Source: Candidatus Nitrosotenuis chungbukensis (lineage in GTDB: Archaea > Thermoproteota > Nitrososphaeria > Nitrososphaerales > Nitrosopumilaceae). Taken from it: a DNA stretch of 64,000 nucleotides. The notes beneath the pieces are model-generated. The model searched no databases. It was given only the letters and a program-made list of their open reading frames with translations, and was not told where the DNA came from. The DNA is taken from assembly GCF_000685395.1 (NCBI RefSeq), contig NZ_AVSQ01000015.1, positions 124,001 to 188,000 of the forward strand, read 5' to 3'. This document shows positions 44,705 to 46,466 of the stretch, in pieces. The stretch's first letter is position 1. Each line of letters starts with the position of its first letter. Both the position numbers and the translations under genes were made by a program.

Positions 44705-45484
44705 CTATTTTAGATCCAGCGGAATTGTAGCCGTTCCCCAAGACTCCTTCACGTTGAAGGTATATTGTTTTGCGGGGTCGTACTTGAATGGTACGTAGCT
44801 TCCATATCCTATTGCTGGTCCAAACATGATGTTCATTTCTTTTGACATCCCGGGTCTTAGCACTATTTGGCCGCTTGTGAAATCGTTTGCCGCATATTTG
44901 TACGTGGTTTTACCATCTGAAATATCGTAGTTGCATGCTGCTGGTCCCGTGCAATACAACGCAACATTGTCCTTTGATCCTGTATTCTCGACTAGGAACT
45001 TTAGATTGAGTATGTGCACGTTGCCGCTTTTTTCTACTTTAGCTCCGGGATAGTAAAATGTCACTGGTCCAACGACATGTTTTTTTGATTTTTGTTTGAA
45101 ATCATCGGACGACTGTGCTGATCTTAGGGCCTTCTCGCACTCGTACTGCTCTCGCTCCGTTTCTTTTTGTTTACATGCTGATTTTTGTGCTTCAAGTGGA
45201 TCGATGGCGGGTTTTGCTTGTTGTGCTGTGATGTTTGTTGCATCTGTTTGTGGTTTCTTTGCTGTTGGCTGCTTTGCTGTCTTTTTTATTTTTTCTTGAA
45301 TGGTTTTCTTTACGCTTTCTTTTTTGTCAGTTGATTTTGCTTTGGTTTTTTCATTACTTGTGTTTTCTCCAAATGCCGAAGTTGCAGCGACGCTAGATAA
45401 CAATAAAAACGCGGCAGCTATTGCAATTATCTTTATGGCGGCGCTATTTGCCATATTTTGCTGAATTATTGTGCTCATTACCAT
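44705..45484 (-). CDS. Exported protein with Lys-rich linker
   Basis: A signal peptide or N-terminal anchor (IKIIAIAAAFLLLSSVAATSA) is followed by a Lys/Thr/Glu-rich linker (residues about 40-130, with KKTIQEKIKKTAKQPTAKK). A beta-rich domain follows (VGPVTFYYPGAKVEKSGN to KESWGTATIPLDL) with two cysteines (YCTGPAACNY). The layout resembles other thaumarchaeal exported proteins. A box TTTATAT on the minus strand near 45502-45508 suits the ATG. Confidence 0.7.
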   Translation of the reverse strand: MVMSTIIQQNMANSAAIKIIAIAAAFLLLSSVAATSAFGENTSNEKTKAKSTDKKESVKKTIQEKIKKTAKQPTAKKPQTDATNITAQQAKPAIDPLEAQKSACKQKETEREQYECEKALRSAQSSDDFKQKSKKHVVGPVTFYYPGAKVEKSGNVHILNLKFLVENTGSKDNVALYCTGPAACNYDISDGKTTYKYAANDFTSGQIVLRPGMSKEMNIMFGPAIGYGSYVPFKYDPAKQYTFNVKESWGTATIPLDLK

Positions 45485-45534
45485 GTTTTGGGCGATTTGT
45501 CATATAAACTAGTGATAAGATTTAATTCTAGTGC

Positions 45535-46377
45535 CTAAAATGTTTTGATTGCTTTTGGGAGTTCGTTTAGGCTGATATTTCTTAAAATTTTGGCTTCAAA
45601 TTTTGACTCTTGGTCATTGTTGACTGCCTGGCCTCCGACAAATATTGGGATTTTGGATTTTTCGCGAATTTTTTTAACTAGTCTCTGACCTGGCTTTATG
45701 TTATCTGCAAGGGTTATGGAAAGAAATACCATGTCTGGCTTGACCTTTTCAATAAAATTTACAACTGAGTCGTGCGGCTCAGAAGGGGAAATATTGTATA
45801 TCTTGAATCCCTTGCAGAGCATGTGTGATTCAAGAATGTTTACTCCCAAATTGTGTTGTTCGCCGTCTGGGGTACAAATCACGATTTTCTTTTTTGATGG
45901 GCGTGTCATGTTTTTGTCCGAAATGATTTTCACGAGACTATTTGCTACGTTGCTACAAACATGTTCGTCTGCAACGCTGATCTTATTTGATGCCCATTGT
46001 TTTCCTACGTCGTACATGACTGGGGTGAGAATTTTTTCATAAAAGCTCGTCGTTCCAGACGACGGCCTGTATCTCTCATAGAGTTTTAGCGCGCCTTCTA
46101 CATCTCCATTAATAAAAAAGCCAAACAACTGCTCTCTTATTTTTGATAGTGCTTCTTCTTTTTTCTGCCCATCTGCGAATTCATCTGATGCTAAAAACGA
46201 AATTATTTTTGGGTCGTTTTGATGCTCTGGTGGGATGTCTTCTTTTGTTACATTTGATGCTTTTCCGAGATACTTGATGGTCTCCTGCCTTGAAGTGTTG
46301 TTCTTTGAATCCCAGACACTGCGAACCAAATAGAGATATTTTTCACCCTTTACTGCTTTTGATCGGATGTAAACCAT
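45535..46377 (-). CDS. Cobalamin-binding protein with CarH-type W-x9-EH motif
   Basis: This 280-residue protein has three parts. Residues 1-45 (VYIRSKAVKGEKYLYLVRSV) resemble the N-terminal piece of IS1634-type transposases. Residues 75-160 are a four-helix cobalamin cap with W128 and E138-H139, exactly the W-x9-EH pattern of the CarH/LitR photoreceptors. Residues 163-280 are a Rossmann-like B12 domain with EQHNLG (H175), the ExHxxG lower-ligand motif. No DNA-binding domain is obvious. A light- or B12-sensing role is inference. Confidence 0.82.
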   Translation of the reverse strand: MVYIRSKAVKGEKYLYLVRSVWDSKNNTSRQETIKYLGKASNVTKEDIPPEHQNDPKIISFLASDEFADGQKKEEALSKIREQLFGFFINGDVEGALKLYERYRPSSGTTSFYEKILTPVMYDVGKQWASNKISVADEHVCSNVANSLVKIISDKNMTRPSKKKIVICTPDGEQHNLGVNILESHMLCKGFKIYNISPSEPHDSVVNFIEKVKPDMVFLSITLADNIKPGQRLVKKIREKSKIPIFVGGQAVNNDQESKFEAKILRNISLNELPKAIKTF

Positions 46378-46466
46378 TGAGACACTTGTTTACTCTTAAA
46401 TTAATAAATAATGCTAATCTTATTCTCTAGTGCTAACTTTGACAAATCACAAATCAGATGATATCG

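Follow-up and report, generated by a model that had tools for sequence, protein, structure and literature searches.

The 64-kb stretch of DNA analysed here (the window), taken from a genome of 1.76 Mb, carries a gene that we interpret, with a probability of roughly 0.78, as encoding a light-sensitive transcriptional repressor that depends on adenosylcobalamin (AdoCbl), in effect the CarH of these archaea, although its DNA-binding head is not related to that of CarH. This interpretation is founded on the ligand motifs and their conservation, on the gene neighbourhood, and on a direct repeat at promoters that co-occurs with the gene.

A CarH-type cobalamin pocket

The sensor gene (45535..46377, minus strand) has an ATG start and encodes a protein of 280 aa, composed of an N-terminal module, a B12 cap and a B12 Rossmann domain. 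The B12-binding_2 cap (PF02607, E 2.9e-12) spans residues 82-152 (45922..46134, minus strand) and the B12-binding Rossmann domain (PF02310, E 3.3e-12) residues 164-258 (45604..45888, minus strand), both Pfam matches exceeding their cut-offs. Translation places a CarH-type upper-ligand motif, W128-x9-E138-H139, at 45961..45996 and a lower axial ligand motif, E173-x-H175-x-x-G178, at 45844..45861 (both minus strand), exactly at the residues where the sequence-only reading had located them. In extended form the cap motif reads G125xxW128-x9-E138H139, while the B12 motif reads E173xH175xxG178-x41-SxT-x25-GG (S220, T222 and G248-G249) and matches in full, with spacings x41 and x25, the D/ExHx2G/P-x41-SxT/V-x22-27-GG motif of CarH/LitR. 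The protein shares both motifs and the cap and Rossmann unit with CarH and class I LitR, for example T. thermophilus CarH. Its top NCBIfam model is CarH (NF052513, 64 bits, far below the equivalog cut-off of 400), with corrinoid methyltransferase families ranking behind, and T. thermophilus CarH is among the nearest PDB entries by sequence, together with cobalamin-binding proteins from the photocobilin study (E ~1e-14).

Three of the four elements of the published light signature (GxxW, EH, GxxH and GxxxP; PMC11796333) are present. The GxxxP position reads S197xxxP201, with the proline kept, and its glycine is found in 23 of 64 relatives. The position of TtCarH His132 is occupied by alanine; CtMerR and photocobilins also have no equivalent of this histidine, yet they respond to light (PMC11796333).

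Searches of Pfam, NCBIfam and PDB returned no MerR-type winged-helix DNA-binding domain, in line with the earlier claim that the MerR part of CarH has been replaced, and we therefore do not class the protein as a CarH member. The C-terminus lies about 20 residues past the B12 domain, where Pfam detects no further domain, and the bilin-binding globin-like domain of photocobilins is absent. Photocobilins (SasPcob, AbDPcob) display the same cap motif, with a highly similar stretch, VGxQWAxNxISVAxEH, in the Streptomyces relatives compared, but the sensor protein differs from them by its N-terminal module, its candidate operator and the lack of a domain match past the B12 domain.

Gene neighbourhood

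ORFs around 152 sensor loci were clustered and named by Pfam, related genomes being counted more than once. Of the 152 loci, 101 have an NmrA/SDR gene near the sensor gene, usually in divergent orientation. FAD oxidoreductases of the carotenoid-desaturase/PRK07233 type are found at 60 loci, DUF1722 at 53, TFB genes at 48, a protein with weak DUF6845 similarity (SRPBCC-like/START label) at 41, photolyases at 20 and pyrimidine dimer DNA glycosylases at 8. The count for neighbour cluster c4 is rough, because single linkage was used to join it and it contains more than one subfamily. In the window, the sensor gene is flanked by an ABC-type ATPase ORF and by a gene for a secreted protein of 259 aa without Pfam match (44705..45484, minus strand), relatives of which lie near sensor genes elsewhere. 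This gene, which also has a candidate operator upstream, is a probable member of the regulon.

Photolyases (PF03441) occur in 36 of the 250 genomes of the host's class, and 34 of these 36 carry the sensor gene (p 3e-14). Both genes are on one contig in 24 genomes, at most 12 kb apart in 21 of them; in a few photolyase-linked genomes, the nearest family gene is a paralogue lacking the cap tryptophan (W-less paralogue, see below). No PF03441 photolyase was found in the window's own genome. Photolyases have been reported for epipelagic marine and low-salinity ammonia oxidisers (PMC9239080).

CarH/LitR genes, like relatives of the window gene, have photolyase, SDR and FAD-oxidoreductase genes nearby. 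The Thermus pTT27 light cluster contains phr and carH together with SDR and FAD-oxidoreductase genes; over 300 aa, the archaeal SDR shares 34% identity with TTH_RS10455 of Thermus. Similarly, Pseudomonas LitR clusters comprise phrB, a short-chain dehydrogenase, an FAD oxidoreductase and a DUF1722 protein (PMC9758184, PMC11417400).

A candidate operator at the promoters

Upstream regions of sensor genes share a direct repeat, TTAGCACTAG-N9-TTAGCAYTA, immediately next to the TATA box. Its variants can be written TT[A/G]GCACTA[G/T]-N9-TTAGCA[T/C][T/C]A, directly followed by the TATA box. The spacing from start to start is 19 bp in most cases, and the first repeat usually begins 56-59 bp before the start codon, gene starts having been set mechanically. 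The candidate operator of the window's sensor gene (TTAGCACTAG-N9-TTAGCATTA; 46409..46436, minus strand) is followed by a TATA-like TTTATTAAT at 46400-46408. A second candidate (TAGGCACTAG-N9-TTATCACTA, then TTTATATG; 45510..45537, minus strand) precedes the secreted-protein gene and overlaps, with its first repeat, the sensor gene's stop codon; it shows three mismatches to the strict pattern, with a layout that recurs in two relatives (L007 and L071). On another contig of the same genome, a divergent pair of candidate sites lies near an SDR homologue, which points to a probable regulon that does not depend on neighbourhood. A further site with three mismatches (C15:29869) may be due to chance, because the reversed control pattern yields three such matches. 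The half-site alone occurs five times in the window against 5.4 expected, which is the chance level, so that the repeat is informative only when it is paired and at a promoter. One exact half-site, TTAGCACTAT, lies within the secreted-protein gene (44857-44866, plus strand).

The operator was derived from the family's upstream regions, and the genomes in which it was subsequently counted are in part the same. With one mismatch allowed, the paired repeat is present in 86 of the 97 genomes with the sensor gene versus 6 of the 153 without it (Fisher 1e-46), or 2.2 versus 0.05 sites per genome. Independent tests are provided by the genomes without the gene, by the reversed pattern, which gives nearly no matches genome-wide, and by sites before other genes. 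The association persists within genera (CMH p 1e-22) and thus reflects more than genus-level shared ancestry. We rejected the repeat as a general archaeal promoter element, as it is nearly absent where the sensor gene is missing.

A paired site is found upstream of the sensor gene itself in 98 of 114 cases, of the FAD oxidoreductase in 34 of 44, of the secreted-protein cluster in 27 of 33 and of the SDR in 35 of 74, versus 11 of 238 other genes and 6 reversed-control matches in total. In many cases the SDR gene and the sensor gene point away from each other, so both promoters lie in one intergenic region. A single half-site precedes 9 of 19 photolyase and 30 of 49 TFB genes, versus 59 of 500 other genes; DUF1722 and endoV-type glycosylase genes are light-type neighbours at which the operator is rare. 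One TFB (TFIIB) paralogue (L124:5378-6295) and related loci often display the half-site, and the TFB paralogue near the sensor gene may be a dedicated initiation factor for the light response. Finally, one genome listed as 99% complete (G120) has a photolyase and three operator sites while no sensor gene was found in it; the gene has been lost or is absent from the assembly.

The CarH operator consists of direct 11-bp repeats overlapping the promoter (PMC8156234). Judging from its position, the candidate archaeal repeat would resemble it in lying at the promoter, where it abuts the TATA box. It differs in consisting of repeats of about 10 bp at 19-bp steps instead of tandem 11-bp repeats, and in sitting at an archaeal BRE/TATA, whereas CarH itself is bacterial and has a MerR domain and His132. 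Taken at the level of sequence, the motif, the photolyase, glycosylase and LitR/CarH-cluster neighbours and the dedicated candidate operator lend support to the photoreceptor-like role that had been suggested for the window gene.

CarH-type pockets require AdoCbl for activity, and cofactor level rather than light could then be the signal to which the same DNA-binding repressor responds. We consider such a sensor of vitamin B12 status unlikely, since the accompanying genes encode photolyase, pyrimidine-dimer glycosylase and LitR-cluster enzymes, and none of the operator sites found in the window's genome was seen to lie at a cobalamin gene.

The N-terminal module

The first 50 residues (46228..46377, minus strand) form a basic module (9 K/R versus 3 D/E in residues 1-43) that is strongly conserved (R5, K7, Y14, V18, W22, Q31, KYLG and P49). 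On its own, the module has no match in Pfam, NCBIfam or PDB. Searching related archaea with its profile yields DDE transposases and Fic-domain proteins, including a DDE_Tnp_1 transposase with 30 bits (E 6e-9 among a small number of candidates), and IS1634/IS4-type DDE transposases start with a similar module of about 40 residues. The transposase-like N-terminus described from the sequence is thus real at the profile level, but it is a resemblance and does not make the protein a transposase: the catalytic domain is missing, and the module heads Fic proteins too. As it occupies the place of MerR in CarH, we take it to be a candidate DNA-binding head, probably one that substitutes for MerR and is common to transposases and Fic proteins. 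Fic-domain proteins at four loci (L100-L103) begin with a similar module, which suggests a mobile small domain absent from Pfam, and a 79-codon open frame with the module only (L070, G109:C1:1044252-1044440) could be a standalone DNA-binding protein.

DNA binding by the N-terminus is something that we infer, and a light or B12 sensor could instead work through protein contacts, for example with the neighbouring TFB, the repeat being bound by another protein. TFB genes are indeed nearby in 48 of the 152 loci, as counted above, and regulation through protein contacts is possible for standalone photocobilins (PMC10979010). We nevertheless find this arrangement improbable, a little more so than B12-status sensing, because the repeat follows the sensor gene genome by genome, within genera too, and because the basic module heads transposases, which act on DNA.

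Family spread and phylogeny

The sensor gene is present in 96-97 of the 250 genomes of the host's class, the difference being one fragment. Named loci found by similarity belong mostly to Nitrosopumilus, Nitrosarchaeum, Nitrosopelagicus and Nitrososphaeraceae, that is, to ammonia-oxidising archaea. Class-wide and phylum-wide searches detected the fusion of the N-terminal module with a B12 domain only in the order of ammonia oxidisers; beyond that order, the phylum-wide search returned no fused relatives, only standalone corrinoid proteins and MetH.

The sequence-only reading had tied its proposal to the retention of W-x9-EH among homologues and to an alignment with CarH and methyltransferase B12 proteins. 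GxxW-x9-EH is intact in 142 of the 147 homologous ORFs of at least 250 aa from ammonia-oxidising archaea, and H175 is kept in all 69 aligned family members. In the alignment, W and EH are present in all seven bacterial proteins compared, which are similarity matches from plasmids and include Thermus CarH, while GxxW-x9-EH is found in none of the 25 methyltransferase/MetH corrinoid domains, which have F or Y and no EH. The motif is therefore not due to chance. In the tree, the archaeal family forms one clade (98/98) and the methyl carriers lie beyond a 100/98 branch; several branches are long, which bears on the place of the archaeal family among bacterial sensors.

These results speak against a corrinoid methyl carrier of a methyltransferase system, which we regard as very improbable. 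MtaC/MttC/MetH-type carriers have an identical two-domain B12 fold, and corrinoid proteins come second in NCBIfam, but they fall on the opposite side of the tree, 25 of 25 lack the key pocket residues, and the recurrent identified neighbours of sensor genes include no methyltransferases; we rejected this function on tree position and pocket residues. Least probable of all is a domesticated or decaying transposon product, since the protein has no DDE catalytic domain (Pfam returns B12 domains only) and many genera keep the gene with a conserved promoter and neighbourhood, so that, of a transposase, the head alone is shared and a domesticated transposase was rejected.

Five family members (L062, L063, L081, L082 and L083) lack GxxW-x9-EH, with Q-T or Q-I in place of EH, and keep the lower histidine. 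The four included in the tree form a single clade nested in the family (100/100): the losses of W-x9-EH sit in a derived paralogue clade. Some W-less paralogues lie near photolyase, MEDS and winged-helix genes, and their promoter has a different, palindromic site (CTCACCTAGGTGAG type). CarA, the B12-independent CarH paralogue of Myxococcus, likewise keeps the lower histidine and has lost the upper-ligand motif (PMC9304148), although the archaeal paralogues lose EH plus W; the window protein is intact. By analogy, CarA would have an archaeal parallel in a W-less paralogue that possesses a palindromic site of its own.

Proposed mechanism

Returning to the light-sensitive repressor, we infer from these data AdoCbl binding, photolysis, an oligomer switch, N-terminal DNA binding and the sign of regulation, as follows. 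In the dark, the W-x9-EH cap and the Rossmann-domain residue H175 would hold AdoCbl between them, and the cofactor would keep the protein as an oligomer, whose basic N-terminal modules would bind the direct repeats TTAGCACTAG, about 19 bp start to start. Since the second repeat occupies the BRE position and is followed by the TATA box, bound protein should keep TBP/TFB off the promoter, which points, as for CarH, to repression in the dark and release by light. Light would break the Co-C bond, the adenosyl group would be lost, the oligomer would open and the promoters would become free. Predicted targets are the sensor gene itself, the NmrA/SDR enzyme, the FAD oxidoreductase and the secreted protein, with photolyase and TFB in relatives.

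AdoCbl should be available to the host. Its genome encodes a protein that, by its sequence, we take to be the small subunit of methylmalonyl-CoA mutase, and a gain of cobalamin biosynthesis has been reported for ammonia-oxidising archaea (PMC7554672).

Significance

Ammonia-oxidising archaea rank with the most abundant microbes of ocean and soil, and the effects of light on them are a long-standing question. B12 photosensors have been described in bacteria; we found none described for archaea in the open-access papers searched. As photolyase genes and a specific DNA site travel with the sensor gene, light sensing via vitamin B12 is probable, and ammonia-oxidising archaea thus probably sense sunlight with this vitamin. 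We also think it fairly likely that, in ammonia oxidisers, a CarH-type sensor became joined to a transposase-like module for DNA binding, and that this module recognises direct repeats located at the BRE/TATA of a regulon for protection against sunlight, to which photolyase and a TFB belong, the W-less paralogue being a parallel to CarA. The new head and operator would add a part for green-light gene switches, and, with a named sensor, operator and target set, the light question becomes directly testable in ammonia-oxidising archaea.
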